Shown in pieces: positions 8,169 through 64,000 of a DNA stretch of 64,000 nt. Source of the stretch: a virus; the IMG/VR virus record IMGVR_UViG_3300011115_000717, positions 43,929 to 107,928 of that record. One strand, written 5' to 3'. Under the pieces are notes generated by a model. It saw only the letters and a list, made by a program, of their open reading frames with translations, was not told the origin of the DNA and searched no databases. A program made the translations under genes and the position numbers. Within the stretch, counting starts at the first letter, position 1. Each line of letters opens with the position of its first letter.

Positions 8169-10349
8169 AGTTCTTTTAATACCATGAATGATATATCTAA
8201 ATCTATTAAACTAATTAAAGAGTGCCAATATTTAACTATTGGTTCTGATTATTTTATAGTAGATCATGTCTCCAATCCAACTACAATTAAAATAGGACAT
8301 GGATTCGGTGAGATCAAATTAAAAGATACCAAAAATAATGAATTTATTTTAAATGGTAATTTAAATAAAATTGGACAATTATTTAAACCAAATAATCTCT
8401 TTGAGGTTGTTGGTGGTTCGTCCTATATTTTAAAAACTAATATTGATACTTTTCAATTAAATAGCGAATGGAAAGAATTTCCTACAGCCACTTTGGTTGA
8501 ACAATTCATTGATGTTGGTGTTGGTGTTTCAAGTAAAATATTTGTTGAAAAGTCTTCAAATAAAGTTGTTAAATTTGTTGGTAATTTAAATAAAATAAAC
8601 AGTTTATTTGAAGAAATTCTTATTGCTCCTGTTACACCACATCCTGTTTTAATCGTAGAACAACAAAGATCCGTAAGAACTAAAACAATTCCCGGACCAA
8701 TTGGTCCAGTTGGTTTAGCTGGCGTTCAGGGTGAGATGGGTCCAACTGGTATTATTGGTACACCAGGTACCAAAGGAGATACTGGAGAAAAAGGAGACAA
8801 AGGTGACCAAGGAGACAAAGGCGATCAAGGAGAAATTGGACCCGTTGGTGAAATTGGTCCACCTGGTATACAGGGCATACAAGGAATACAAGGTCCACCT
8901 GGACAAGATGGTAGTGTCGGTCCTCAAGGTGATGTTGGACCTCAAGGATTGGTTGGTCCGCAAGGTATCCAAGGTAAACCAGGATCGAATGGACAGAATG
9001 GCAAAGATGGAATCCAGGGCGCGATTGGACCTCAAGGTCCGATGGGCGAAAAAGGAGATCGCGGCGAGAAAGGCGAAAAGGGAGATCGAGGCCAAAATGG
9101 TCTACAAGGAATCCCAGGAGTTGCCGGTACAGTTGGACAAAAAGGCGATAAAGGTGACAAAGGAGAGATAGGTCCTATAGGAATATCTCCTGTCATAACA
9201 GCCGAATATCCTGTTATATTAAAAGAAGGAAAAATTTCTTTTGATGCTCAAAAAATAACAGCACTACTTGATCAATTTAAAAATCAAGATATACAAAAAG
9301 CAATTGATAGTTTTGCAAAAACTGCTACACCAGGTGGTGGTGGTTTAGGTATTTTATTCCTAGGATCCAGAGTTTTAAAATCAGTTAATGATATTAATTT
9401 TACTGGTAGCGGTGTTACAGTTATACAACGTGGTAAAGGTGTAGAAGTAAATATTCCTGGTGGATCTGGTGGAGGTGGTGCAGTAAATAAAATTATTGCT
9501 GGTAGTGGAATTTTAGTTTCTCCTTCTGGTGGTACTGGTGATGTAACTATAACAAATCTGATATCTGTAAAGGCTACTGAAGGAACTATTCAAGTTGCTA
9601 ATGGTAGTGATTTATTTGGAGACTCGGGATTTAGATATAATTATTCGACAGATGGTTCGTTACAGACACCAAAATCTTTTAAATTGGGAACCCTAGATCC
9701 AGATAGTTTTTTACAGTTTCATGATGGATCACAACAATTTACAGCTGCCAACACCTTTACATATGGAACAACTGCATCACCTGGATTTACTCATGGTGAT
9801 CGGTGGATGTCTTCCGATACCGGTATTGAATATGTTTATGTCAATGATGGTAATACTCCGCAGTGGGTTCAGCCTACTAATACAAGTGGTGGGCAAGCAT
9901 ATTCTCCAGTATATGGTTCATTCTATGACACCACAACTCAAGGTGCTACTTTAGGTAATACTGGATATGCAATGACGTTTAATTCAACAGATTACTCAAA
10001 TGGGGTATCTATTGTAAGTAATAGTCGTATAACATTAGATTATACTGGAATATATAATGTTCAATTTTCTGCACAGTTGAATAAATCAACTGCTTCAAAG
10101 TCCCATATTGATATTTGGCTAAGAAAAAATGGAACAGATATATCAAATACAAATACTTCAATGTCTTTAGCCGGATCAGATGCTAAAACAGTAGCGGCAT
10201 GGAACTTTTTTGTAGGAGTGACTGCAGGAGATTATCTTCAACTTATGTGGGCTACAGATGATACAAATAGTAATATTTTATATCAGACCGCAACTTCTGT
10301 GCACCCAGCCACACCTTCCATCATTTTAACCGTAAATAAAACAAATTAA
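8163..10349 (+). CDS. Collagen-like tail fibre / adhesion protein
   Basis: The 728 residues have three parts. An N-terminal domain of about 175 residues has repeated motifs (LNGNLNKIGQLF, VGNLNKINSLF). A collagen-like Gly-X-Y region runs from about residue 178 to 342 and is rich in GPQG, GDKG and GIQG triplets. The C-terminal region includes Gly-rich linkers and ends in a beta-rich domain (about residues 580-728) that resembles a C1q/TNF-type jelly roll. The Gly-X-Y part should form a triple helix, making a rod with a trimeric head that may bind the host surface. Related proteins are known as phage fibres. The start codon lies in a palindrome. Confidence 0.85.
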   Translation: MASSFNTMNDISKSIKLIKECQYLTIGSDYFIVDHVSNPTTIKIGHGFGEIKLKDTKNNEFILNGNLNKIGQLFKPNNLFEVVGGSSYILKTNIDTFQLNSEWKEFPTATLVEQFIDVGVGVSSKIFVEKSSNKVVKFVGNLNKINSLFEEILIAPVTPHPVLIVEQQRSVRTKTIPGPIGPVGLAGVQGEMGPTGIIGTPGTKGDTGEKGDKGDQGDKGDQGEIGPVGEIGPPGIQGIQGIQGPPGQDGSVGPQGDVGPQGLVGPQGIQGKPGSNGQNGKDGIQGAIGPQGPMGEKGDRGEKGEKGDRGQNGLQGIPGVAGTVGQKGDKGDKGEIGPIGISPVITAEYPVILKEGKISFDAQKITALLDQFKNQDIQKAIDSFAKTATPGGGGLGILFLGSRVLKSVNDINFTGSGVTVIQRGKGVEVNIPGGSGGGGAVNKIIAGSGILVSPSGGTGDVTITNLISVKATEGTIQVANGSDLFGDSGFRYNYSTDGSLQTPKSFKLGTLDPDSFLQFHDGSQQFTAANTFTYGTTASPGFTHGDRWMSSDTGIEYVYVNDGNTPQWVQPTNTSGGQAYSPVYGSFYDTTTQGATLGNTGYAMTFNSTDYSNGVSIVSNSRITLDYTGIYNVQFSAQLNKSTASKSHIDIWLRKNGTDISNTNTSMSLAGSDAKTVAAWNFFVGVTAGDYLQLMWATDDTNSNILYQTATSVHPATPSIILTVNKTN

Positions 10350-10353
10350 TAAA

Positions 10354-10361
10354 GATAAATA
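10354..10361 (+). promoter_or_regulatory. T4-type late promoter GATAAATA
   Basis: The octamer differs from TATAAATA only at its first base. It lies 7 nt before the ATG of the next fibre gene, and no ribosome site lies between them. Confidence 0.55.
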
Positions 10362-10368
10362 TTAACAC

Positions 10369-12000
10369 ATGGCACTAGATTTCCCTACATCACCAGCACT
10401 GAATGAAATTTACACATATGGTGGTCGTTCCTGGAAGTGGAACGGAACTGCATGGGATGTTTATAGTACCGTAAGTGGTGATGTTGTAACAAAACTTAAT
10501 GGTTTGACTGGTGGTGTAACTCTTGCTGCTGGGTCAAATATTACTCTAACTCCAGTTGGTAATACCATTACTATTGCGTCTTCTGGTGGTGGTGGTACTG
10601 GTAGTGGTGCGACTGGTGCAACTGGAGCAACGGGTCCACAAGGAAACACAGGTCCAGTTGGAGATTATGTAAGCACATTCAATGGACTCACAGGTGCTGT
10701 AACTGGTGTAACTCTTGGTGGTGCAGCCTTTACAGGACTCGTATCTTCTACAGTTGGATTCTCTGGTCCTGGAACAAATCTCATAGGTAACGCATCTGGA
10801 TTGACTGCTGGTAGTGCTTCTAAAGTTCAAATTTCTGAAGCAGCAACAAGTACCGTGCATTATCTGGCTCTTGCAACTGGTACTGGTAACACTGGAATTT
10901 ATATTGATACATCTGCTCCAAGATGGACATATACTCCGAGTACAGGATTACTGACTACCCCAACAGGAATTTTAACAGCACCGACTATAAATTCTAGTGG
11001 CACTGTTTATACAAATAATATTAACACTTATGTTTATGGTAATCCAATTACTATTTCTAGTGATGGTGGAATTAATATAAATGAAACAAGTGGTACGGGT
11101 CTTGATGTGAATACCATTGGGACTATTCGTATGGGTGATATTTCTGGATTTGATAATGGTTATATTTTTGCTATAAATGAGAGTGCTGGAGAAGTAGACT
11201 TTAGTGGTATGAGCATAATAAATGCTGGAGGAGTAGTTACAACATTCAATGGACTATATGGTGCAGTTACTGGTGTCAGTAAATTGAATGGTCTTTCAGG
11301 TGGCGTAACTCTCGCAGCCGGTACAAATATCACACTGACTCCCGTAGGAAATACAATTACCATTGCGTCTTCTGGTGGCGGTGGTGGAAGTTCTGTATAT
11401 GGAGTTACTGCAAGTCTTGACTTCTCTGAAAATATTAATGGAATTCGATTGACGATTGGAGGAACTGGTAGCAATGGAACTGATCTTTCAGTAATAAATA
11501 AAGCAATTTCAATAGTTCCAACAATTTCTACATCGGGTGCAACATATTCATGTGTTTTTGTTTCTGCAACACCTTCATATTCCACCGCCACATCGCAGTG
11601 GGCTGCAAAATTAATTTTGAAACCACCATTTGGAACAGGTGTTACATCTGCCAGTACTATTATTGCTGCCCCAATAACACAAATTTCTTTATATGTTACA
11701 GGATTAACTGGAAATACATATACAGATAATTGGACAAATATTTCAGGATCTGATTTGTATCATCAAGACGCAACCTATGTAACTAAAACTCTCACAGGAA
11801 TTACATGGGTTTCAGATAGTATGTTCTTAAACTGCAAAGTTTTAGGACTCACATCAGCAGATCACACTCCAGAGGATGCAATTCTAGAGGGTGTTAATTT
11901 CGAGATAAATAATATACTGGGAGGCACAGGGTTCGACATAATCGGACATGCTCCCGAAGGCACATACGGTAAGTACACAATTAAATGTTTAGGTCAATAA
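10369..12000 (+). CDS. Tail fibre-like structural protein with internal repeat
   Basis: The 543-residue protein begins with FPTSPALNEIYTYGGRSWKWNGTAW, a module found at the N-terminus of many phage fibre proteins, probably for attachment to the virion. A segment of about 33 residues (KLNGLTGGVTLAAGSNITLT and the following Gly-rich run) occurs near residue 42 and again near residue 305, a clear internal duplication. A short collagen-like GATGATGPQGNTGPVG tract lies near residue 82. The C-terminal about 170 residues form a different beta-rich domain ending in CLGQ. It is preceded by a late promoter octamer and followed 10 bp later by the next structural gene. Confidence 0.75.
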   Translation: MALDFPTSPALNEIYTYGGRSWKWNGTAWDVYSTVSGDVVTKLNGLTGGVTLAAGSNITLTPVGNTITIASSGGGGTGSGATGATGATGPQGNTGPVGDYVSTFNGLTGAVTGVTLGGAAFTGLVSSTVGFSGPGTNLIGNASGLTAGSASKVQISEAATSTVHYLALATGTGNTGIYIDTSAPRWTYTPSTGLLTTPTGILTAPTINSSGTVYTNNINTYVYGNPITISSDGGININETSGTGLDVNTIGTIRMGDISGFDNGYIFAINESAGEVDFSGMSIINAGGVVTTFNGLYGAVTGVSKLNGLSGGVTLAAGTNITLTPVGNTITIASSGGGGGSSVYGVTASLDFSENINGIRLTIGGTGSNGTDLSVINKAISIVPTISTSGATYSCVFVSATPSYSTATSQWAAKLILKPPFGTGVTSASTIIAAPITQISLYVTGLTGNTYTDNWTNISGSDLYHQDATYVTKTLTGITWVSDSMFLNCKVLGLTSADHTPEDAILEGVNFEINNILGGTGFDIIGHAPEGTYGKYTIKCLGQ

Positions 12001-41332: not shown

Positions 41333-41360
41333 ATTATACACGATATATTATAGGTGTCAA
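41333..41360 (-). promoter_or_regulatory. Early promoter, leaderless, for the 110-aa gene
   Basis: On the minus strand TTGACA (41360-41355), a 16-bp spacer and TATAAT (41338-41333) are followed after 7 nt by the ATG at 41325. The -35 box lies just downstream of the tmRNA terminator. Confidence 0.8.
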
Positions 41361-41363
41361 TAA

Positions 41364-41389
41364 CAAAGCCCTGCTTTCACAGGGCTTTG
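41364..41389 (-). terminator. Terminator hairpin after the tmRNA
   Basis: CAAAGCCCTG (41364-41373) and CAGGGCTTTG (41380-41389) form a perfect 10-bp stem with a 6-nt loop. In the leftward direction it is followed by TTATT. It ends the tmRNA transcript before the next promoter. Confidence 0.75.
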
Positions 41390-41390
41390 G

Positions 41391-41685
41391 GTCGATTCAG
41401 ATGCGGGAGACCAAACCCCACTGCTTTAAGCAGCCATTGCTAATTGGTTAGCAATCATGGTTTGCAACTGTTTATTTGCGTTTCTTGTTACCCGAAACGG
41501 ACATCTCCTTCATCACTACTACTTGCCAATCGATACCTTAACGGGCCCTTAAGAAATGCCCCACTGCGGCGAGGACTTGGTTCGGCTTATCAGAAGTCGC
41601 AGAACATTCTGAATACACCTAATGGACCCGAGGGGAGTCGAACCCCTGTGTTGTGCAACTCTCGTTCCGATATCAACAATGTCAA
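41391..41685 (-). ncRNA. ssrA: Permuted (two-piece) transfer-messenger RNA
   Basis: Read leftward, the 3' tRNA-like half comes first: T arm AGGGG-TTCGACT-CCCCT (41647-41631), acceptor strand CGGGTCC (41630-41624) and discriminator A (41623), with no CCA. After an intervening segment of about 75 nt, the 5' half begins GGGCCCG (41548-41542). These strands pair over 7 bp with a G3.U70 wobble, the alanine identity element. GGTATCGATTGG follows, like the D-loop region of tmRNA. A resume codon GCA (41479) would begin the tag ANKQLQTMIANQLAMAA, stop 41428-41426. GC-rich possible pseudoknots and a terminator follow. Tag start and outer ends are inferred; the permuted order and paired stem are direct. 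It should rescue stalled ribosomes. Confidence 0.85.
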
Positions 41686-41768
41686 TGCAAGAGGAGGGAT
41701 TCGAACCTTCGTAGAAATAAATCATCACATTTACAGTGTGACCTCGTTGACCGCTTGAGTACTCTTGC
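41686..41768 (-). tRNA. tRNA-Tyr (GTA)
   Basis: The acceptor arms GCAAGAG and CTCTTGC pair perfectly, with discriminator A. The anticodon stem TCACA/TGTGA encloses CTGTAAA with anticodon GTA. A long variable arm, as expected for bacterial tRNA-Tyr, precedes a T arm with TTCGAAT. CCA is not encoded. It abuts the tmRNA and lies 4 bp after a protein gene, so all are probably co-transcribed. Confidence 0.9.
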
Positions 41769-54669: not shown

Positions 54670-54897
54670 ATGAATCATATAACTCGTCATTACAAAAATT
54701 TAGCGGAACAACTCGAAAACCAATTAAACCAATTGATTGAGGGTATCAAAAAAGTAAAGAAGCAACTTGACCCAGTAGGCAAGGAAGATCAAGATATTGA
54801 CAACGATGGTGAACGAAACGACAAAGAGGATAAATTTATAGCACAACGTCGCAAAAAGATCTCTCAGGCAATAAGACTTCGTGGTAGAAATAAATGA
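54670..54897 (+). CDS. Small charged late protein with YYKNL-type N-terminus
   Basis: The 75 residues start MNHITRHYKNLAEQLENQLN, matching the N-terminal pattern of the proteins at 43819 and 46925, and continue with a Lys/Asp-rich region (EDQDIDNDGERNDKEDKFIA). It ends in a basic RRKKISQAIRLRGRNK. The open frame begins at 54622, but the late promoter favours ATG 54670. The stop overlaps the next gene. Confidence 0.6.
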   Translation: MNHITRHYKNLAEQLENQLNQLIEGIKKVKKQLDPVGKEDQDIDNDGERNDKEDKFIAQRRKKISQAIRLRGRNK

Positions 54898-55298
54898 AAA
54901 AATTTAAAGAATTTTTAGCCGAATCTAGTGACCTTTATGAAGAGAAGGATGCCTGTTACAAAAAGGCAATGGCTTCATATGGTAAGTGGTCAGCAAGAGC
55001 AGCCCAAGCAACGGCAAAATGTCGTAAAGGCAAGGGCAAGGTTAAAAAGTCTAAGGCAGGGGCAAACTTAAAGAGATGGGAAGCAGAAGATTGGGTAGAC
55101 ACCAAGTCAGGTAAAGATTGTGGTGCAGGGGGAAAGAATGAATATTGCAGACCAAGCAAGAGAGTCAGTAAGAAGACTCCAAAGACAGCCTCAGAGATGT
55201 CTTCCAAAGAGTTAAAGAGTAAGAAGGCAGAGAAGTCAAGAGTCGGAATGCAGGGAGCAGGGGGAAACAAAGTTTCACCCACACAGAGAAACACATGA
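54894..55298 (+). CDS. Basic phage protein with capsid-targeting leader and Cys motif
   Basis: The 134 residues start MKKFKEFLAESSDLYEEKDA; K-x-F-x-x-F followed by L-A-E-S is a close match to the T4 capsid-targeting leader and its cleavage site. The body includes WVDTKSGKDCGAGGKNEYCR and PSKRVSKKTPKTASEMSSKE, a small basic domain common in large phages (known as a DUF, function unknown). It is very Lys-rich, suiting packaging with DNA. It overlaps both neighbours by 4 bp. Confidence 0.75.
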   Translation: MKKFKEFLAESSDLYEEKDACYKKAMASYGKWSARAAQATAKCRKGKGKVKKSKAGANLKRWEAEDWVDTKSGKDCGAGGKNEYCRPSKRVSKKTPKTASEMSSKELKSKKAEKSRVGMQGAGGNKVSPTQRNT

Positions 55299-55588
55299 AA
55301 AGTTTTAAAGAATTTTTAGAAGAATCTGGTGCATGGCAACGCAAAGAAGGAAAGAACCCTGAAGGGGGACTTAACAAAAAGGGTGTTGCTGCATATCGTA
55401 GAGAGAACCCAGGTTCCAAACTTCAAACTGCTGTAACCACAAAGCCATCAAAATTAAAGCCTGGGTCAAAGGCAGCAAAGAGAAGAAAGTCATTCTGTGC
55501 AAGAATGGGTGGAATGCCTGGACCAATGAAGGATGAAAAGGGAAGACCTACAAGAAAAGCCTTATCACTACGAAAGTGGAACTGCTAA
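55295..55588 (+). CDS. DUF6321-like basic protein with capsid-targeting leader
   Basis: The 97 residues start MKSFKEFLEESGAWQRKEGK; the leader matches MKxFxxFxEE with a potential cut after L-E-E. The body contains NPEGGLNKKG, KRRKSFCARMGGMPG and GRPTRKALSLRKWNC, a highly conserved pattern found across many phages and environmental sequences (the DUF6321 group, as I recall). The function is unknown; the Cys and basic residues suggest nucleic-acid contact. It is coupled to the next gene by TAATG. Confidence 0.75.
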   Translation: MKSFKEFLEESGAWQRKEGKNPEGGLNKKGVAAYRRENPGSKLQTAVTTKPSKLKPGSKAAKRRKSFCARMGGMPGPMKDEKGRPTRKALSLRKWNC

Positions 55589-55776
55589 TGAAGAATTTTA
55601 TTAATTTTGTAAACGAAAGCAAAGTATGGAAAGCAACAGTCAAGGTATCGAAAGATGGAAAGACTGTAGAGATTCCTGTAGAGTCAGGAGAGAGCATTCG
55701 TAAGGCAGTACATGGTAAGGTAGCAGAGTTGAGTAAAGAGGGGTATAAACTTGAGAAAGTTGATTACGAACAATGA
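55588..55776 (+). CDS. Small late protein with capsid-targeting-like leader
   Basis: The 62 residues start at ATG 55588 (MKNFINFVNESKVWKATVKV), again an MKxFxxFxxE leader with V-N-E before Ser. The rest is a small beta-rich domain (KDGKTVEIPVESGESIRKAV). The longer open frame from 55576 lies inside the previous gene. It is the last rightward gene of this late cluster. Confidence 0.65.
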   Translation: MKNFINFVNESKVWKATVKVSKDGKTVEIPVESGESIRKAVHGKVAELSKEGYKLEKVDYEQ

Positions 55777-56696: not shown

Positions 56697-56719
56697 ATTA
56701 TTGGACGCGACCTATCGGC
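56697..56719 (-). promoter_or_regulatory. GCCGATAG / GTCCAATAAT element, copy in leftward orientation
   Basis: On the minus strand GCCGATAG (56719-56712) is followed by GTCCAATAAT (56706-56697). It lies about 20 nt downstream of the promoter at 56743-56771. A partial rightward copy (GCTGATAG 56818-56825, GTCCGATAAT 56832-56841) lies nearby. Confidence 0.5.
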
Positions 56720-56742
56720 TTTTTGGGGCGTGCAGTAACTAT

Positions 56743-56771
56743 ATTCTACCATATGGGGAGTGCTGTGTCAA
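56743..56771 (-). promoter_or_regulatory. Early promoter reading into the GCCGATAG element
   Basis: TTGACA (56771-56766), a 17-bp spacer and TAGAAT (56748-56743) on the minus strand. No reading frame begins at its start; transcription would cross the element and enter the gene at 56604. Confidence 0.6.
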
Positions 56772-56861
56772 GGTCCAAATTTTAGTTATCACAGATTTTT
56801 TTGTTGATAGGCTGGGGGCTGATAGGACAACGTCCGATAATTATTATTTTTTTATTGGAAA

Positions 56862-56926
56862 CACCCAGGCGCTCTCCCTGGGTGGAGATAAAATAAAACC
56901 ACCTAGACTCTTGACAGTCTAGGTGG
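56862..56926 (-). terminator. Terminator after the VWA-protein gene
   Basis: CCACCTAGACT (56899-56909) and AGTCTAGGTGG (56916-56926) are perfect complements; leftward they are followed by TTTTATTTTAT. A second GC stem, CCCAGG...CCTGGG, lies at about 56865-56883. Confidence 0.85.
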
Positions 56927-56953
56927 CGAACCCTCTACGGTTACTGTGTATCT

Positions 56954-59140
56954 CTACCGCTTGCCCTTCTTGGGCAGATGACCTGCCACAAGGTTGGCGA
57001 AGCGGTTCAAGAAGACTCGACTGACCATACGATTGGTCATGCTCTTGATGAAAGTATTGCGAATCTTGGTAAGTGTCCCGGTCAATTCAGGCATGACATC
57101 AGCAGCAGGACGCAAAGGACGAACGATGTAATACTCATGGAAACCCGGAGTCAACTCAGGAAGAGCAGGATAGAAGTTGTCCGTGTTGTACTCACGGTTG
57201 ACCTCTGACACCTCTGCCTTCTGTGCTTCCGCATAGTCCTTGCGTGACATATTGCTTGGGTAGACCTTCTTGGGATTACGAATCAATTTCGTATACAACG
57301 ATGCACCCACGCCCGTCATACCACCGATGGAGAACCCGATGGTAGTAACACCCATCTTCTGAATCTCCGATGCCATGAAGTATTGCAACTGAAGCCCAAG
57401 ACTGTCCACGCCCGTGCGAGTATCCGATGGCATGGTGACCGTCCGACCTGTTGCCATGTGCTGAATACGCAATCCCTTGACTGCATTGTATGACCGCTTG
57501 CCCGTGATACTCTGATGATTCGGTTCACCGTCCGTGACCAAGATCAGCGAAGTGATCTGTGATCCGGTCTTGTTGATGAACTTCGGCAGGTAGTCGTGCA
57601 GAATCATCATGGCTTCCACCGTAGGCGTTCCACCCATGTGCAATGCTGACGGCATCACTTCATTGATTGCGTAAGTGTAGTTCGTACGATTGCTGCTGCT
57701 ACCACCTGCCAACCACAGCAATTTTTCCATCTCCTTCTGCTCTGCATCCGTCATGGTGCTGCTGAGAACCTGCACCAAATTGGTATGAACAAAGTTTAGG
57801 GAATCCTTCTCATCCTTTGCATTACCAAAGGTGGAATGACGAGAAGGGTGGTTTGGATAAATCTTTTTATAAATCTCTGCCTTCTCTGCTTCCATACGAG
57901 CAGTCTCCACAGCACCGGGAATCTTCTGTGTCTTGTCCTGAACATCGGTGTACAGGAACACTTCGTATGGAATCTTGACCTTACGGCAGAAGCCAACGAG
58001 CAGCAGAGTCTGCCGAAGCACATTGTCTGAACAGCAGGACATACTGCCTGACCAATCAATCAGGAACACCATGCCATGCTTCTTGCCTTCAAACTTCACA
58101 AGATTGCGAAGGAAGATATCGTCATGGGTACGGTACTGATGCAGACGATCCGGATTCAGGTTTCCGCTCTCCTTCATGCGCTCATTGCGAATCTCTGCTG
58201 CTGCCTTACGGCGTTCAAACTGAGCAGCCAATTCCTTGATGCTCTTGTCCACTTCCTTGCGGAAGGTTGACAATTCAACCTCTGTGGAGGCGATCATGGT
58301 ACGAACCTCTGAGATCCAATCCTTGTTCTTGCGTGGATTGTCCGTGAGTCTTTCCATCTTGAAGGCATGGTCATCAATGACCTCCTGAAAGCCAACGATG
58401 CAAAGCGATGAATCCACCTTGGGTAGCGAGTACGACATATACGGAAAGTCTTCACGCTTTGTGCTGTACGCATCAGCGTCCGTCAAATCCTTGCCATCAC
58501 GCATGAACTTCTTGTCCATCAATTCGCCAAGATCATTGGATGGGGATGAATCAGGCTTCTCGTCCATCTCATCCTTTGCCAACATGAACAGATCGTCTGC
58601 GATCTTGACCACTTCGGCATAAGTCTTGACAGTCGCTACGCGATCAATGATCTTCTGTTCAGCAGGGCTGAAGTCAAAGGACATCAGACCGAAGACTCCA
58701 AACTTGAAGTACAGGTTGATGCGATCAATGATCGACATCGTGCTGACCGGAGTATCCTTCAGTTCAAAGATGTCAAGGGCGAGAATCTCCTTGTAGCCTT
58801 CAAAGAAGTCACGCCGACATCCGGGGAACTTCTCCTTGATCATGCGCTCGATACGAGCATCCTCGATACTGTTGATACAGGCTTTGTATCCTTGGGGATG
58901 AAGTTTGCGCTCCCTTGCGTTGTCGAGCGAGGCAAGGAACTCCTCTGCGGGAGTGTACAGGGCATGACCGACCTCATGGGCGATGATCATATCCTTGAGT
59001 GCTTGGGATGTCTTCCAATCCGGAATGGTCAGAGTACGACTCTCCATATCGAAGGAGGCGGTAGGGGCAGCGGTGTCGAGGTTGACGAAGATGTTCTCGC
59101 TTGCGAGGGCACGAGCGAACAATGATGTAGAGGTGTTCAT
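56954..59140 (-). CDS. CobT-like VWA-domain protein with HExxH motif
   Basis: The 728 residues start at ATG 59140 (MNTSTSLFARALASENIFVN), 7 nt after TACCAT; an open frame upstream lies before the promoter. HEVGH at residues 55-59 is a zinc-metalloprotease-type signature, followed by EDARIE and a helical region. The C-terminal half is a von Willebrand A domain with MIDAS motif DWSGSMS and later a TDGEPNH loop. VWA proteins partner with MoxR/CobS-type AAA+ ATPases, and such an ATPase is encoded just upstream. Whether it cleaves proteins, inserts cobalt or remodels a host complex is not known. Confidence 0.8.
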   Translation of the reverse strand: MNTSTSLFARALASENIFVNLDTAAPTASFDMESRTLTIPDWKTSQALKDMIIAHEVGHALYTPAEEFLASLDNARERKLHPQGYKACINSIEDARIERMIKEKFPGCRRDFFEGYKEILALDIFELKDTPVSTMSIIDRINLYFKFGVFGLMSFDFSPAEQKIIDRVATVKTYAEVVKIADDLFMLAKDEMDEKPDSSPSNDLGELMDKKFMRDGKDLTDADAYSTKREDFPYMSYSLPKVDSSLCIVGFQEVIDDHAFKMERLTDNPRKNKDWISEVRTMIASTEVELSTFRKEVDKSIKELAAQFERRKAAAEIRNERMKESGNLNPDRLHQYRTHDDIFLRNLVKFEGKKHGMVFLIDWSGSMSCCSDNVLRQTLLLVGFCRKVKIPYEVFLYTDVQDKTQKIPGAVETARMEAEKAEIYKKIYPNHPSRHSTFGNAKDEKDSLNFVHTNLVQVLSSTMTDAEQKEMEKLLWLAGGSSSNRTNYTYAINEVMPSALHMGGTPTVEAMMILHDYLPKFINKTGSQITSLILVTDGEPNHQSITGKRSYNAVKGLRIQHMATGRTVTMPSDTRTGVDSLGLQLQYFMASEIQKMGVTTIGFSIGGMTGVGASLYTKLIRNPKKVYPSNMSRKDYAEAQKAEVSEVNREYNTDNFYPALPELTPGFHEYYIVRPLRPAADVMPELTGTLTKIRNTFIKSMTNRMVSRVFLNRFANLVAGHLPKKGKR

Positions 59141-59147
59141 GTTGTTT

Positions 59148-59175
59148 ATGGTATCAGAATTGGAATGCGGGTCAA
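59148..59175 (-). promoter_or_regulatory. Early promoter, leaderless, for the VWA gene
   Basis: TTGACC (59175-59170), a 16-bp spacer and TACCAT (59153-59148) on the minus strand; ATG 59140 after 7 nt. Confidence 0.65.
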
Positions 59176-59235
59176 GAGGGGAGAGCAGAAAATTATGATA
59201 ATTTCTACTCTCCCCACCGCGAAGCAATCAGAGGA

Positions 59236-59514
59236 TCAGACGGATGCTGCTGTACTGGCAGCGATCAGGGCGGACATATCGTACATCTTGGCACCTCGTG
59301 AGAGGTTGGTGATGTCAGTAGCGCAATCTTTCAGAACCCATGTTGGAACACCCTTCATACCAATCTTGTTGGCGATGGCAAGCAGTTCCCACTTCTCGAA
59401 CAGGTAACTTGCAGGTTCATTGCGTGCGATACGACCCGGACTAGTGGGACGATTGTTCTCCGCGAAAGACTTTGCGGCTGCGATATAACGATTTCTCTTG
59501 TTGACATACGGCAT
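59236..59514 (-). CDS. Hypothetical protein between the AAA+ and VWA genes
   Basis: The 92 residues start MPYVNKRNRYIAAAKSFAEN with AAGGAG 9 nt upstream. The pattern FEKWELLAIANKIGMKGVPT looks like a small helical or SAP-like DNA-binding fold, which is a weak suggestion. It lies between the CobS-like and CobT-like genes and may belong to the same system. No family is recognised with confidence. Confidence 0.6.
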   Translation of the reverse strand: MPYVNKRNRYIAAAKSFAENNRPTSPGRIARNEPASYLFEKWELLAIANKIGMKGVPTWVLKDCATDITNLSRGAKMYDMSALIAASTAASV

Positions 59515-59529
59515 GGTAGTGACTCCTTA

Positions 59530-60498
59530 TTAGATACTGACTGTAGTAGGCATGGTGGTTTGCTTAACCACTTCTTCGATGACCGGGGCAGACGGAACGA
59601 CCTCTGCCACCGGGATTGGATTGATCGTTGGATCAATCTTTGTGTAAAGATTCCAAAACGCTTCCTGAGTGTCTCTGTCGAACCGATTCAGGGACAGGCG
59701 AACAGCCTTCTCCTTGTCGTGGAACACAGCGTAACCCTTCACGATTCCAAGCAGACGGCGAGTGGAGACGATCTTGTCCAAGGCACCTTCCGCATACCCC
59801 TTACGAATGGTTTCAGCCCACTTCGTAAGGTAGTTGGCGAAATCGTCATCCCGACAGTTGCGCTCGGACATCATCCGAATCACAATGCGAGTCTCGACTG
59901 CACGAGGAGCGTACTCCTGCTCGTAGGTGTAATCGAACCGATCCAAGAACGCTTCGTTCTGAACCCGTGTTCCCACGAACATATCGTCCCCACCACCGTC
60001 ACCCTTAGTATTGGCAGTTGCCACAATCATGAACCCCGGAGCAGGGCGCACGAACTCCGAAATCTTCTTGATGAAGATACCCTTGCCCTCCAAGACTGGC
60101 TGCAAGCACATGATGCGCTCAGAGGCGAGATCGACCTCATCCAAGAGGAGAACAGCCCCACGCTTCATTGCTTCGATGGCAGCACCGTACACGAACACGG
60201 TCGAACCATTGTGAAGACGGAAACCACCGATGAGATCGTCCTCGTCAGTCTCTGCTGTGATGTTGGCACGAATGCACTCACGATTGGCATTGGCACAGGC
60301 TTGCTCAACCATAGTGGTCTTACCATTACCGGACAGCCCGGTAACATACAGAGTGGTAAAGTCGTTGTTGCGGACGAACTTCTCTACATCATCGAAGTGA
60401 CCCCAAGGTACATACGATGGCGTGATGGCGGGAATCAGGCTTCCCTTCTCTCCGGTCAGGTTGCTGTTCATTGCGAGATTGATCTGTGAGTCTGTCAT
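59530..60498 (-). CDS. cobS: CobS-like/MoxR-type AAA+ ATPase
   Basis: The 322 residues start at ATG 60498 (MTDSQINLAMNSNLTGEKGS), with AAGGAAC upstream; the first 9 residues of the longer frame look spurious. Walker A GLSGNGKT is near residues 54-61, Walker B VLLLDEVD near 110-117, the ATANTKG sensor and NEAFLDRF follow. The layout matches CobS, the ATPase of aerobic cobaltochelatase, known in marine T4-like phages. Its partner VWA protein is two genes downstream. It could support cobalamin-dependent NrdJ or act as a general remodelling ATPase. Confidence 0.85.
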   Translation of the reverse strand: MTDSQINLAMNSNLTGEKGSLIPAITPSYVPWGHFDDVEKFVRNNDFTTLYVTGLSGNGKTTMVEQACANANRECIRANITAETDEDDLIGGFRLHNGSTVFVYGAAIEAMKRGAVLLLDEVDLASERIMCLQPVLEGKGIFIKKISEFVRPAPGFMIVATANTKGDGGGDDMFVGTRVQNEAFLDRFDYTYEQEYAPRAVETRIVIRMMSERNCRDDDFANYLTKWAETIRKGYAEGALDKIVSTRRLLGIVKGYAVFHDKEKAVRLSLNRFDRDTQEAFWNLYTKIDPTINPIPVAEVVPSAPVIEEVVKQTTMPTTVSI

Positions 60499-60641
60499 AC
60501 GGTTCCTTCTGTTGCTTCGGCACAAGGACGATCCTCGTGATGTGTATATGGTAACCGAACTTGCACAAGATTGCTAGTCAATACCTCGCAATATTGTCAA
60601 GATTCATAAAAAAATATATTTGAAATCCGAGGAGATTTTTC

Positions 60642-60669
60642 TTGACATCTGTGTGCTTTGTGGTATAAT
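60642..60669 (+). promoter_or_regulatory. Strong rightward promoter of the hairpin element
   Basis: TTGACA (60642-60647), a 16-bp spacer and TATAAT (60664-60669) with TGG extended -10. No rightward gene follows; the transcript would cross a hairpin and an AT-rich stretch. Confidence 0.75.
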
Positions 60670-60775
60670 GCGCCATCCTGGCCTATCGGCGTTGCTCCGC
60701 AACATTTTAGCCGATAGTACGTCCGATAATAAAAATTAATAATAAATTAATATAAAATAATTTTAAATAAAATAA
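60670..60775 (+). ncRNA. Candidate small RNA or R-loop origin: hairpin plus AT-rich tract
   Basis: CTATCGGC (60683-60690) pairs with GCCGATAG (60710-60717), with an inner GTTGC/GCAAC stem. GTCCGATAAT (60721-60730) follows, then about 45 bp almost entirely A and T up to 60775. A promoter leads in, and the leftward-operon terminator lies beyond. The whole gap 60499-60827 has no convincing gene. The hairpin is nearly identical to that at 63969-64000. Confidence 0.5.
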
Positions 60776-60807
60776 CCCCACACCGACTCTGACTTCGGTG
60801 TGAGGGG
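60776..60807 (-). terminator. Terminator of the tRNA-Ile / membrane-protein operon
   Basis: CACACCGA (60779-60786) and TCGGTGTG (60795-60802) pair; CCC/GGG extends the stem past a bulged A. Leftward the hairpin is followed by TTATTTTATTT. It may also stop the rightward transcript. Confidence 0.75.
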
Positions 60808-60827
60808 AAAGCGGGAGTTGAACAACC

Positions 60828-61091
60828 TTACGAAGGGTATTCGTTCATGCAGCATGAACTCTTTTCGCATTGTTCGCTCATACGAACCAGAGTGTTCTCG
60901 ATTCGATTAAAGCGTTTGTCATTCGTCAAATGATTATGCTCTAATTCACGACTGAGTCCCAGGTCAATTTCCTCAACGCGCTGAAGAACCTCTGACCGAA
61001 AGTTCTTTGCCATCGACTTGATGTAGTACGCTACGAACACAACAACCATCAAACCTGCAACAATCCATCCAATGTTATCTGCTGTAACCAT
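60828..61091 (-). CDS. Small membrane protein with cytoplasmic coiled coil
   Basis: The 87 residues start at ATG 61091, after AAAGGAG with 5-nt spacing. A membrane helix at about 9-25 (WIVAGLMVVVFVAYYIKSMA) is followed by a charged coiled coil (VEEIDLGLSRELEHNHLTND) and a Cys-rich end (CEKSSCC). The shape recalls small phage membrane regulators, but no family is recognised. It follows tRNA-Ile and is ended by a good terminator. Confidence 0.6.
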   Translation of the reverse strand: MVTADNIGWIVAGLMVVVFVAYYIKSMAKNFRSEVLQRVEEIDLGLSRELEHNHLTNDKRFNRIENTLVRMSEQCEKSSCCMNEYPS

Positions 61092-61129
61092 AGTGTCTCC
61101 TTTGTAAAAGTAAGTAACTCAATCACGAA

Positions 61130-61205
61130 TAGAAGGGGCGGGAGTTGCACCCACATATTCGCGCTTATAAGGCACGCGCTCTAACTACAATTCAGCCACC
61201 CTTCT
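61130..61205 (-). tRNA. tRNA-Ile (TAT)
   Basis: The acceptor arms AGAAGGG and CCCTTCT pair perfectly; discriminator A. The anticodon stem CGTGC/GCGCG encloses CTTATAA with anticodon TAT, reading AUA. The T loop is TGCAACT, an unusual variant of TTCAAAT. CCA is not encoded. Confidence 0.8.
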
Positions 61206-61337
61206 GTATGACACTACTCTTACGGCGAGTGTCCAACCGGGCAACCATAGGTTACCTCTATACGGTTCCTAACCCGCTTCACGCTTGTCAGTTATGCCGT
61301 CAACCCGAATAAAGTATTATATTTTTTGTGGTGATAT
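61206..61337 (-). ncRNA. Candidate structured leader upstream of tRNA-Ile
   Basis: Between a promoter and tRNA-Ile lie about 130 nt with no reading frame but several complementary segments: ACACT/AGTGT, ATAG/CTAT, GGTT/AACC and ACGGC/GCCGT. This could be a structured RNA or a processed spacer. No known family is recognised. Confidence 0.4.
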
Positions 61338-61344
61338 ACATTAC

Positions 61345-61373
61345 ATTGTACCCTCTCCTATGTTGAAAGTCAA
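61345..61373 (-). promoter_or_regulatory. Early promoter for the tRNA-Ile unit
   Basis: TTGACT (61373-61368), a 17-bp spacer and TACAAT (61350-61345) on the minus strand. The -35 touches the 3' end of tRNA-Arg. Confidence 0.6.
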
Positions 61374-61374
61374 G

Positions 61375-61448
61375 CATTCCCGGTTGGACTCGAACCAACG
61401 ACATACAGATTAGAAATCTGTTACTCTATCCAACTGAGTTACGGGAAT
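61375..61448 (-). tRNA. tRNA-Arg (TCT)
   Basis: The acceptor arms ATTCCCG and CGGGAAT pair perfectly; discriminator G. The anticodon stem ACAGA/TCTGT encloses TTTCTAA with anticodon TCT. The T arm has GTTGG-TTCGAGT-CCAAC. CCA is not encoded. Confidence 0.9.
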
Positions 61449-61453
61449 AGAAG

Positions 61454-61526
61454 TAGCGCGGGTGGGACTCGAACCCACACTTGACAGATTTTAAGTCTGT
61501 TGACTCTGCCGTTGGTCTACCGCGCC
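61454..61526 (-). tRNA. tRNA-Leu (TAA) with short variable loop
   Basis: The acceptor arms GGCGCGG and CCGCGCT pair with G1.T72; discriminator A. The anticodon stem ACAGA/TCTGT encloses CTTAAAA with anticodon TAA. The variable loop is only about 5 nt, whereas bacterial tRNA-Leu has a long arm. The T arm has GTGGG-TTCGAGT-CCCAC. Confidence 0.8.
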
Positions 61527-61531
61527 ACACA

Positions 61532-61795
61532 TTATACCAATTCGTACTCGATTGGTTCCCACTTCTTGATGGTGGTCAGAATCACGCTTCGCCACTCACC
61601 GATGTCAAGATCGTAGATTCGCTGAACACCGGGCGAGTCTGCCTTCTTGTTGTCCTTCGATGGGTGGTCAACCTTGGGAACCTTCTTGAGATCGGTGGTT
61701 CCGTTCAGAGTGCGAGTGGTTCCGTCCTTCTTACGAAAGACAACCTTGACGATCAGCCCGTCATTCAATGCTTTGACAAATCCCGATGATGGCAT
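61532..61795 (-). CDS. DUF2693-like small protein
   Basis: The 87 residues start at ATG 61795 (MPSSGFVKALNDGLIVKVVF), with GAGGA upstream; the longer open frame overlaps the previous gene and looks wrong. VKALNDGLIVKVVFRKKDGT with TRTL, and a later QRIYDLDIGEWRSVILTTIK, fit a small SH3-like domain seen in many phages (the DUF2693 group, as I recall). The function is unknown. The stop codon lies in a TATAAT sequence in front of tRNA-Leu. Confidence 0.7.
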   Translation of the reverse strand: MPSSGFVKALNDGLIVKVVFRKKDGTTRTLNGTTDLKKVPKVDHPSKDNKKADSPGVQRIYDLDIGEWRSVILTTIKKWEPIEYELV

Positions 61796-61796
61796 C

Positions 61797-62072
61797 TTAG
61801 TCCTCCGTGCGGTAGTAGTCAGCGTCTTCTTGGTGACTGATTTGGTGCGAGATGATGGCTTCCGTGGCTTCTTCTTCGTCTGCATAGGTTTCGACATTCT
61901 CAATTTCTCCGCTAAGGTGGTTCTGAAAGATAACAAGGATCTCCTCGTTACCAAGGGTGTACGCCGTGGCAAACATATCTCCCAAGTCTACTTCGCCCAT
62001 ATCCCACTTGTCAGCGAGATCAGGGTTTGCGAGAATGTCTTCAGCCAATTCAAACAGGTCGATCTCTTTCAT
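61797..62072 (-). CDS. Small acidic early protein
   Basis: The 91 residues start MKEIDLFELAEDILANPDLA and are very acidic, with helices and IENVETYADEEEATEAIISH. It has its own early promoter with the ATG 6 nt after TATCAT and no ribosome site. A DNA-mimic role could be imagined from the charge, but this is speculation. No family is recognised. Confidence 0.6.
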   Translation of the reverse strand: MKEIDLFELAEDILANPDLADKWDMGEVDLGDMFATAYTLGNEEILVIFQNHLSGEIENVETYADEEEATEAIISHQISHQEDADYYRTED

Positions 62073-62078
62073 ACGAGT

Positions 62079-62107
62079 ATGATATCCGATTTAGGGGTGA
62101 ATGTCAA
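62079..62107 (-). promoter_or_regulatory. Early promoter, leaderless
   Basis: TTGACA (62107-62102), a 17-bp spacer and TATCAT (62084-62079) on the minus strand; ATG 62072 after 6 nt. The -35 overlaps the end of the upstream gene. Confidence 0.7.
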
Positions 62108-62400
62108 CGAATAATTGGAAAAGTTTTGAAATGTTCGATCAGGGGTTCAAGGTAGTCGAAGTACTCTTCGCTCAGGTAACTCTCTGTGCCTCGCAGCCCA
62201 ACAGAGACACAACTGACATCTTCAAAGATTGGAAGATTGTCCTCACCAAACCTACAGTCAATGCAGAGGTCACTACCGCTGTTCAGAATGAAGTAGTAAA
62301 ACTCACCCACACGCTTCCAACTGTACTCTGTCTCTCCTTCGGTGTAGTCACCCTTGAGCGGAATGTCGTAAACGATTTGTGTTGTTTCTTTGTCTGTCAT
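62104..62400 (-). CDS. Small acidic early hypothetical protein
   Basis: The 98 residues start MTDKETTQIVYDIPLKGDYT with GGAG upstream. It contains FYYFILNSGSDLCIDCRFGE, with a C-x-x-C pair, and ESYLSEEYFDYLEPLIEHF, a C-terminal helix. It is acidic and unnamed. It is part of the leftward unit that also carries tRNA-Lys. Confidence 0.55.
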   Translation of the reverse strand: MTDKETTQIVYDIPLKGDYTEGETEYSWKRVGEFYYFILNSGSDLCIDCRFGEDNLPIFEDVSCVSVGLRGTESYLSEEYFDYLEPLIEHFKTFPIIR

Positions 62401-62404
62401 TGTG

Positions 62405-62614
62405 TTAACTCCGTTCCATGTAGCAGCAGAAGGAACACATCACGGCGGGTGATCCTGCGGGCTTTCCATCACGAATACCCTCCGCAGCGGGAATGTCGCG
62501 AGAAAGTTTGGCGATCTTATTGCTGGTCTTCTCCGTCAACGTCTGCTGGCAGTAGTCGCACTTCAGTTTGGCGGTCGGGTTTGCTACGATTGTGAATACT
62601 GGGAATACTGACAT
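62405..62614 (-). CDS. Small zinc-finger-like protein
   Basis: The 69 residues start at ATG 62614 (MSVFPVFTIVANPTAKLKCD) after AAGGAGACACT, a ribosome site shared with several neighbours. CDYCQQ and a later CSFCCYM give two Cys pairs that could bind zinc. The middle is basic (KTSNKIAKLSRDIPAAEGIR). No family is recognised. Confidence 0.6.
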   Translation of the reverse strand: MSVFPVFTIVANPTAKLKCDYCQQTLTEKTSNKIAKLSRDIPAAEGIRDGKPAGSPAVMCSFCCYMERS

Positions 62615-62624
62615 AGTGTCTCCT

Positions 62625-62792
62625 TTAGAATCCAATGGCGAACTCGCCATCCTTATCCATTTTAGTGAGTTGTTTACTAGCCCAATGATGAATGTCGTTT
62701 GCTGAATCGTAGATGACTACGGGACGATACCGTAGATCCGGATCCTTGTCGATTGCTTCATTGATTATTTTTAATATTGTGTCGTATGTCAT
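62625..62792 (-). CDS. Small early protein (55 aa)
   Basis: The 55 residues start at ATG 62792 (MTYDTILKIINEAIDKDPDL), with TAAGGAG upstream. A helix is followed by RYRPVVIYDSANDIHHWASK and a short end. It lies between tRNA-Lys and the zinc-finger-like gene and is spaced by standard ribosome sites. No family is recognised. Confidence 0.55.
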   Translation of the reverse strand: MTYDTILKIINEAIDKDPDLRYRPVVIYDSANDIHHWASKQLTKMDKDGEFAIGF

Positions 62793-62805
62793 TGTATCTC
62801 CTTAG

Positions 62806-62878
62806 TGGGATCGGTGGGGCTCGAACCCACGACCAAGAAATTAAAAGTTTCCTGCGCTACCAACTGCGCTACGATCCC
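62806..62878 (-). tRNA. tRNA-Lys (TTT)
   Basis: The acceptor arms GGGATCG and CGATCCC pair perfectly; discriminator A. The anticodon stem GGAAA/TTTCT encloses CTTTTAA with anticodon TTT. The T arm has GTGGG-TTCGAGC-CCCAC. CCA is not encoded. Confidence 0.92.
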
Positions 62879-62879
62879 A

Positions 62880-63030
62880 AACTTGGAGACCCTGTTTCAG
62901 CCGGGTCTCCACCCGCTCACCTGCTTTGTACGGCTCACTAGGATTTTAGTGGCTACGGTTGCCCTGAATACAGTCTTCATTTCGAGCATCTACTGCGCTC
63001 TAGTTTAACTGACTTACATCAAGGCTAGTG
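62880..63030 (-). ncRNA. Candidate structured RNA upstream of tRNA-Lys
   Basis: About 150 nt without a gene. GGAGACCC (62885-62892) and GGGTCTCC (62903-62910) form a perfect 8-bp stem; CACTA/TAGTG and GAGC/GCTC stems lie further along. It occupies the same place relative to tRNA-Lys as the structured spacer before tRNA-Ile. No known family is recognised. Confidence 0.4.
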
Positions 63031-63032
63031 GT

Positions 63033-63335
63033 TTATGCGCCCTCCACCATGATTGCCAACTGACCCAATGCCATCAGGTTGATGATCAACGCCTTCTCGA
63101 CCGGAGTGAACATATCCGGAGTGTTGTCCTCCATCATCTTGTTGATGGAGCGAAGAATCAGTTCGCGGCACTCAGCATCCTGATACCAAACCATGCCACT
63201 CTCGTCCACGGCGGACAGAACTGCGTACTGAATGGAGGCGAGGATCTCGCTGATCTGTGGCTTACGGTTGCTGTTTGCTGCTGCTACGATTGTCGATTGC
63301 AACTGTGCAATCTCGCTGTCACTTAGAATCGGCAT
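63033..63335 (-). CDS. Hypothetical early protein
   Basis: The 100 residues start MPILSDSEIAQLQSTIVAAA after AAGGAGACACT. It is helical, with WYQDAECRELILRSINKMME and a C-terminal PVEKALIINLMALGQLAIMV. No family is recognised. Its neighbours on the same strand are a 47-residue acidic protein upstream and tRNA-Lys downstream. Confidence 0.6.
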   Translation of the reverse strand: MPILSDSEIAQLQSTIVAAANSNRKPQISEILASIQYAVLSAVDESGMVWYQDAECRELILRSINKMMEDNTPDMFTPVEKALIINLMALGQLAIMVEGA

Positions 63336-63344
63336 AGTGTCTCC

Positions 63345-63488
63345 TTAGTCGTTGTCGAGGTTATCAATCAGGGATTCAATCTCATCGTCTACGGGTTCCC
63401 AACGCCCCTGTAGACAGGCTTCGTCTTCGATGTGGTCTGTGTCTTCGTCGTCATCGTCCCAATCCATTGCTACTTTGGTGATCTTCAT
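63345..63488 (-). CDS. Small very acidic early protein (47 aa)
   Basis: The 47 residues start at ATG 63488 (MKITKVAMDWDDDDEDTDHI) and are dominated by Asp and Glu, ending EIESLIDNLDND. The early promoter ends 6 nt before the ATG. The stop is followed by AGGAGACACT and the next gene. A DNA-mimic or inhibitor role is possible from charge alone. Confidence 0.5.
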   Translation of the reverse strand: MKITKVAMDWDDDDEDTDHIEDEACLQGRWEPVDDEIESLIDNLDND

Positions 63489-63494
63489 GGCGGT

Positions 63495-63523
63495 ATGGTA
63501 TCCTATGTAAGAGGTTTGTTCAA
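63495..63523 (-). promoter_or_regulatory. Early promoter, leaderless
   Basis: TTGAAC (63523-63518), a 17-bp spacer and TACCAT (63500-63495) on the minus strand; ATG 63488 after 6 nt. Confidence 0.6.
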
Positions 63524-63548
63524 CAACAATATCGAAACTTTGTAAGAT

Positions 63549-63836
63549 TTATCCACGGTTCAGGTAGCGTTCGTAGGATGAATCATCCATCGATTCACCT
63601 GTACCGCTGTAGTAGCGGTCATCACGACCTTCATCTTCAGGTGGTTCTAGTGTACCTGCTGCCTCTGCTGCTAGGTATTTTTTGGTTCGAAACAAATCAC
63701 GCAAGCGTTTAGGTTGTAGGTCAGCGGCTCGGTCTGCGGCTTCGATGCAGCCCGGGCACAGCCCGTCTACATATGCTTCAAAGGTTGAGCAGGTGCATGG
63801 CATTTCATCGGCGGGGGTTGTTGGGGTGATGTCCAT
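63549..63836 (-). CDS. Small Cys-containing early protein
   Basis: The 95 residues start at ATG 63836 (MDITPTTPADEMPCTCSTFE). CTC and CPGC near the N-terminus could form a zinc-binding site; a basic helix (LQPKRLRDLFRTKKYLAAEA) and an acidic tail follow. The ATG is 6 nt after TACCAT, and an upstream in-frame ATG at 63854 lies before the expected start. No family is recognised. Confidence 0.55.
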   Translation of the reverse strand: MDITPTTPADEMPCTCSTFEAYVDGLCPGCIEAADRAADLQPKRLRDLFRTKKYLAAEAAGTLEPPEDEGRDDRYYSGTGESMDDSSYERYLNRG

Positions 63837-63842
63837 GCGAGT

Positions 63843-63870
63843 ATGGTAACACAATTCAAAGTAGAGTCAA
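63843..63870 (-). promoter_or_regulatory. Early promoter, leaderless
   Basis: TTGACT (63870-63865), a 16-bp spacer and TACCAT (63848-63843) on the minus strand; ATG 63836 after 6 nt. Confidence 0.65.
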
Positions 63871-63926
63871 TACTATTCTTCAATATTCGATCAAAAAGAT
63901 TTTCTATAAATCTTGGCGGAATTGTC

Positions 63927-63954
63927 TTGACATCCAAACTTAAGTGGGTATACT
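63927..63954 (+). promoter_or_regulatory. Rightward promoter of the terminal hairpin element
   Basis: TTGACA (63927-63932), a 16-bp spacer and TATACT (63949-63954). Same arrangement as at 60642. Confidence 0.65.
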
Positions 63955-63968
63955 CCCATCCCGCGTCC

Positions 63969-64000
63969 TATCGGCGTTGCTTCGCAACATTATAGCCGAT
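63969..64000 (+). promoter_or_regulatory. GCCGATAG hairpin element, cut by the window end
   Basis: ATCGGC (63970-63975) pairs with GCCGAT (63995-64000), with an inner GTTGC/GCAAC stem. It differs from the copy at 60682-60715 at only two visible positions. Confidence 0.6.

Follow-up and report, generated by a model that had tools for sequence, protein, structure and literature searches.

Folded single-stranded DNA sites such as integron attC sites, IS200/IS605 ends and REP hairpins share an architecture in which conserved feet enclose a variable inner stem and a foot has a distal partner. Hairpins are likewise part of promoter early stem-loop (PeSL) elements, which are recognized by a strong sigma70 promoter driving the adjacent early gene, a stem-loop acting as terminator, and recombination joints at cassettes. 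PeSLs are described as small composite promoter and stem-loop units that are repeated in the plastic early regions of T4-like phages and are tied to gene shuffling (PMC4503421).

The element described below resembles PeSLs in occurring in many copies within the plastic region of a T4-like phage, in its place, and in combining a promoter with a stem-loop. The DNA analyzed here, referred to as the window, is a 64,000-nt stretch (positions 43929–107928) at the right end of a 107,928-bp virus record that stops within the second of two hairpins.

Promoter-Hairpin Units in the Window

The original prediction pointed to nearly identical hairpins at 60682–60717 and 63969–64000, each following a TTGACA promoter, and we found both as claimed; a third copy lacking the left arm, beside the promoter at 56743–56771, and a degenerate fourth copy at 56818–56841 are also in the sequence. 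The features in this region are as follows.

56697–56719, minus strand: third copy, without left arm (GCCGATAG at 56719–56712, GTCCAATAAT at 56706–56697)
56743–56771, minus strand: leftward promoter (TTGACA-17-TAGAAT) adjoining the third copy
56818–56841, plus strand: degenerate fourth copy, CTGATAGGACAACGTCCGATAAT
56954–59140, minus strand: CobT-like gene (phrog_459 "peptidase"), 728 aa, here termed VWA
59530–60492, minus strand: MoxR/CobS-like AAA ATPase gene, neighbor of E1
60642–60669, plus strand: E1 promoter TTGACA-16-TATAAT, a TG preceding the −10, pointing away from genes (12/12 match)
60683–60717, plus strand: E1 hairpin, outer stem CTATCGGC/GCCGATAG, inner stem GTTGC/GCAAC, bulge ATTTTA (DNA fold z −3.0)
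60721–60730, plus strand: E1 box GTCCGATAAT
60776–60805, minus strand: terminator hairpin of the leftward gene ending near 60828
63843–63870, minus strand: divergent leftward promoter TTGACT-16-TACCAT, ATG 6 nt past the −10, apparently leaderless
63927–63954, plus strand: E2 promoter TTGACA-16-TATACT (11/12 match)
63968–64000, plus strand: E2 hairpin, truncated by the contig end, with complete copies in L004 (3917–3950) and L005

The sequence at 60682–60717 reads C-CTATCGGC-GTTGC-TCC-GCAAC-ATTTTA-GCCGATAG, from which 63967–64000 differs by TTC and ATTATA, with the contig end falling within its 3′ arm. At both hairpins (60683–60717 and 63968–64000) the stem starts 12 nt past the end of the −10, and the E1 promoter has the top score within 56–64 kb. 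A 14-mer is present as two exact copies within the 64 kb, which is far beyond chance; the computed chance figure for the 14-mer scan refers to 3 mismatches, not to exact copies. Since the genes around both hairpins all point leftward, the two near-perfect sigma70 promoters, which point rightward, are directed away from those genes, an arrangement that the original prediction does not mention.

The repeated GTCCRATAAT element named in the original prediction is real, but the wording that it always lies next to a promoter was too strong, since the window also holds one copy within a gene (12766). Across nine related records, the pattern GTCCGATAA has 24 sites, compared with 3 for the reversed pattern, and is limited to the MoxR/VWA early module; its extended form is GTCCVATAAY. 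Because the box is present even in relatives that lack the hairpin (G009 and G010), it seems to be the older part. The possibility that GTCCNATAAY serves as an antisense −10 box was rejected, as antisense scores hardly exceed those of shuffles.

Further Copies in the Same Phage Group

Copies beyond the window were sought with a pattern scan, which led to three contigs of the same phage group, and with additional scans, which led to a fourth; these neighboring contigs hold at least seven copies (E1–E7). Their layout is TTGACA-16-TATACT/TATAAT/TACACT, 4–14 nt, the hairpin, and the terminator of the next leftward gene, the exception being E6 of G004, where the −35 is TTGCAT. The eight-pair outer stem is intact in all 19 aligned E copies, and a search for compensatory changes found one: in the three E6 rows of this alignment, both arms have changed so that a single outer-stem G-C pair is replaced by A-T. 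E3–E7 carry a third segment that repeats the arm (e.g., CGCCGAT, CGCTGAT), making two alternative hairpins possible. The proposal of a shared function thus stands in that every copy occupies the same place and stem pairing is kept with compensation, while the mechanisms listed for it (an sRNA family, an antitermination site, a protein-binding RNA or an origin) are not favored.

The element series ends at P8 (L013 4587; L021 2495), a promoter that shares the upstream block and the GTCCGATAATATTAT box and has no hairpin. The neighboring contig G001 ends at the same second-hairpin position as the record of the window, probably because the repeat broke the assembly. Contig breaks lie within or right at hairpins at window 64000, L003 10547, L021 1 and L160 1520, so assemblies of this phage group are probably cut at repeats.

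Related Dyads Between Operons

Relatives with 65% MoxR identity carry CTACTATC...GATAGTAG pairs at the corresponding boundaries. A dyad scan found these in about 20 contigs, many of them multi-copy, giving 59 distinct elements built as CTACTATC, a 12-bp hairpin, a linker and GATAGTAG, at nearly every operon boundary of the MoxR/VWA module. When dyads were collected at long loci without the hairpin filter, 57 of 60 distinct dyads satisfied it. Both the MoxR and the VWA gene are flanked, and relative to them the dyads have a single orientation per contig, in every contig.

Read in gene direction, the series opens with the terminator hairpin that belongs to gene B; then come CTACT, a perfect ~12-bp hairpin based on ATCAG/CTGAT, a linker of 3–45 nt (frequently TTTTATTGGACG), TGATAGTAG, in many cases GGACGTTATNGGACGC, AT-rich DNA, a promoter and an ATG. 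The CTACTATC element thus follows the terminator of one operon and precedes the next operon's promoter. The feet CTACT/AGTAG are invariant, while stem sequence and linker length are free, arm-to-arm distance varies without phase, and the element lies 30–144 bp from the −35. E1–E7 and the CTACTATC elements probably form one family, a grouping supported by place, box and core and not by sequence that can be aligned.

For 37 of 48 downstream promoters, 6 nt separate the −10 from the ATG, which implies leaderless mRNAs, and leaderless operon starts may hint at the host group. First-gene promoters in the window (59148–59175, 62079–62107 and 63843–63870) and at related loci have the ATG 6–7 nt past the −10.

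Among isolated phages the element has no exact relative, the nearest isolates being cyanophages with 27% identity in the VWA protein, and distant MoxR relatives (45–56%) lack both the hairpin and any comparable hairpin family. Three matches in bacterial genomes were judged to be chance, and a covarying "slip" between TCAG segments was discarded as inconsistent from copy to copy.

Covariation Nearly Without G-T Pairs

Pairing and G-T statistics refer to the CTACTATC elements only, the E copies of the window being too few to be analyzed in this way. In 48 distinct arm pairs, the inner stem was Watson-Crick paired at 521 of 528 positions, compared with 294 in shuffles, and an alignment of 23 copies contained 69 cells changed on both sides and 0 changed on one side. 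G-T pairs made up 2 of 716 pairs in the element stem versus 35 of 442 in adjacent terminators (p = 3e-13), and stems were perfect in 56 of 60 elements versus 17 of 37 adjacent terminators (p = 2e-7). Stem length was 12 bp in 37 of 60 elements; the filter, which demands six consecutive perfect pairs, biases only the lower stem, and most stems are perfect across the full 12 bp. The adjacent hairpins, which are the terminators of gene B, had 35 G-T and 2 A-C cells, the usual RNA signature.

Because covariation on both sides occurs nearly without G-T pairs, unlike in the adjacent terminators, we conclude that the two strands are under equal constraint, which places it at the level of DNA, with copying between elements as a possible contributor; the low G-T content could be due in part to recent copying of this kind. 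Covarying arms with hardly any G-T pairs suggest an undescribed folded-DNA boundary element and not an ordinary RNA hairpin. More generally, G-T-free pairing can tell DNA-level from RNA-level hairpins.

Cassette Swaps Beside the Element

At orthologous boundaries, entire hairpins have been swapped between identical or near-identical flanks (L175:5444, L180:3770). E6 is common to three contigs that differ on one or the other side, a cassette swap beside a (nearly) unchanged element, and one-sided likeness was also seen for G015 6848/G019 5278 and G011 15159/G019 6366. Homology breakpoints fell at elements in 12.4% versus 9.5% (p = 0.10), which is not a significant enrichment; any role in recombination is thus tentative, and the element was not retained as a recombination hot spot.

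Discussion

The element departs from PeSLs in several respects. The strong sigma70 promoter in the window points against the genes, whose own promoters adjoin; the stem-loop and the terminator are distinct, and the former lacks the G-T signature of the latter; and the element has conserved boxes and arms. With regard to termination, a separate terminator usually precedes the element and a T tract follows in only part of the copies, and with regard to recombination, individual joints were seen at elements without significant enrichment. The best reading of this comparison is that the element works like a PeSL cassette but fails parts of the PeSL definition; because its strong promoter does not drive the adjacent early gene, and a terminator function and a role in recombination are no more than possible, we do not file it as a PeSL. 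Intrinsic terminators are similar in that many related elements have a T-rich stretch past the hairpin in gene direction, but the missing T tract in some copies, the usual presence of a terminator hairpin ahead of the element, the nearly fixed stem length and the missing G-T pairs set the element apart from them. With integron attC, IS200/IS605 and REP hairpins it shares conserved feet, a variable inner stem and a distal foot partner, whereas the attC core sites RYYYAAC/GTTRRRY are absent, the feet being CTACTATC/GATAGTAG.

Our best reading, which we put forward tentatively and at somewhat less than even confidence, is that in uncultured T4-like phages the early MoxR/VWA module carries a DNA hairpin as part of a cassette found at its operon boundaries. 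This reading draws on observed position, repetition, compensated pairing, stems with almost no G-T pairs, and restriction to the module. Each copy sits past one operon's terminator and ahead of the promoter that follows, and consists of inverted arms (core TATC/GATA) that hold the hairpin, plus one or more GTCCNATAAY boxes. The hairpin would act as DNA, as a cruciform or a single-stranded hairpin, probably bound or cut by a phage protein that recognizes the boxes as well, and would keep neighboring operons separate and exchangeable. In the phage of the window, a strong divergent promoter is fused ahead of the hairpin, where it would either open the hairpin or produce a short antisense RNA that runs into the end of the following operon.

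A rival explanation is a family of short antisense or trans-acting RNAs, which would start at the divergent promoter, begin with the hairpin and end at the terminator hairpin of the next operon; the near-consensus sigma70 promoters of the E copies, whose predicted start coincides with the hairpin or slightly precedes it, fit this explanation, as does the predicted 135-nt E1 RNA, which folds better than shuffles (z −4.3). We nevertheless consider it unlikely: antisense promoter signal is almost lacking in the related elements (7.5 versus 6.8 in shuffles), these elements lie outside the transcribed unit in gene direction, the element stems are free of the G-T signature, no rightward terminator was found past E1, and eight loci searched against Rfam 15 at gathering thresholds matched only tRNAs and no described RNA family. 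For the divergent promoter of the window itself, an sRNA product is still conceivable. About equally doubtful as the RNA family is a folded-DNA site recognized by a single-strand nuclease or recombinase (HUH, resembling IS200/IS605 ends, or attC-like) that mobilizes the gene cassettes lying between elements. A stem of measured length and free sequence, invariant feet, a free linker, one orientation, and swaps at single elements would all be expected of such a site, but breakpoints are not enriched at elements, and neither a tyrosine integrase (PF00589) nor a Y1 (HUH) transposase (PF01797) was found in any of 20 records, all possibly fragments. A broader version, to which we give slightly less credence, is an integron-like system without a known integrase, in which folded-DNA sites with a measured stem, read by a phage enzyme, would delimit and mobilize early-gene cassettes.

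We find it rather improbable that the locus is an operator array, with a phage regulator acting on GTCCNATAAY and TATC/GATA boxes upstream of early promoters. The boxes are limited to one module and occur also in hairpin-free relatives, as such an array would predict, yet arm spacing and the distance to the −35 vary freely, and a binding site leaves the covarying free stem sequence unexplained. A replication origin or primer site, composed of a promoter, a hairpin and an AT-rich stretch, is very improbable: A/T-rich DNA does follow the hairpin in E1–E4, but it is absent in E5–E7 and corresponds to the tail of the leftward terminator, and seven or more copies in one genome arm would be unusual for origins.

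If the DNA reading of the boundary cassette is right, a structure-reading phage enzyme is still to be found. Sequence drift means that families of repeated non-coding phage elements are seldom recognized; the present family marks operon boundaries in a large group of uncultured phages.

Additional Observations

The phage is T4-like, encoding a DNA polymerase, a replicative helicase and an SbcC/gp46-like protein. Several proteins start with what we take to be a T4-like capsid-targeting motif (MKKFKEFLAES, MKSFKEFLEES, MLSFKQFLEE), with such starts located at window 54894–55776 and at L021 2879, 3994, 4420 and 11004; these are perhaps internal head proteins. Repeated AAAAATGGGTCCCC words lie between the leftward early arm and the rightward genes (L021 2515–2850, L005 1–300) in an origin- or terminus-like arrangement. 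L021 also encodes an IMP dehydrogenase/GMP reductase domain protein (9501–10535; PF00478, E 1.5e-68), and in the window, ARAGORN identified a permuted-type tmRNA gene at 41335–41715 that overlaps a tRNA-Tyr.
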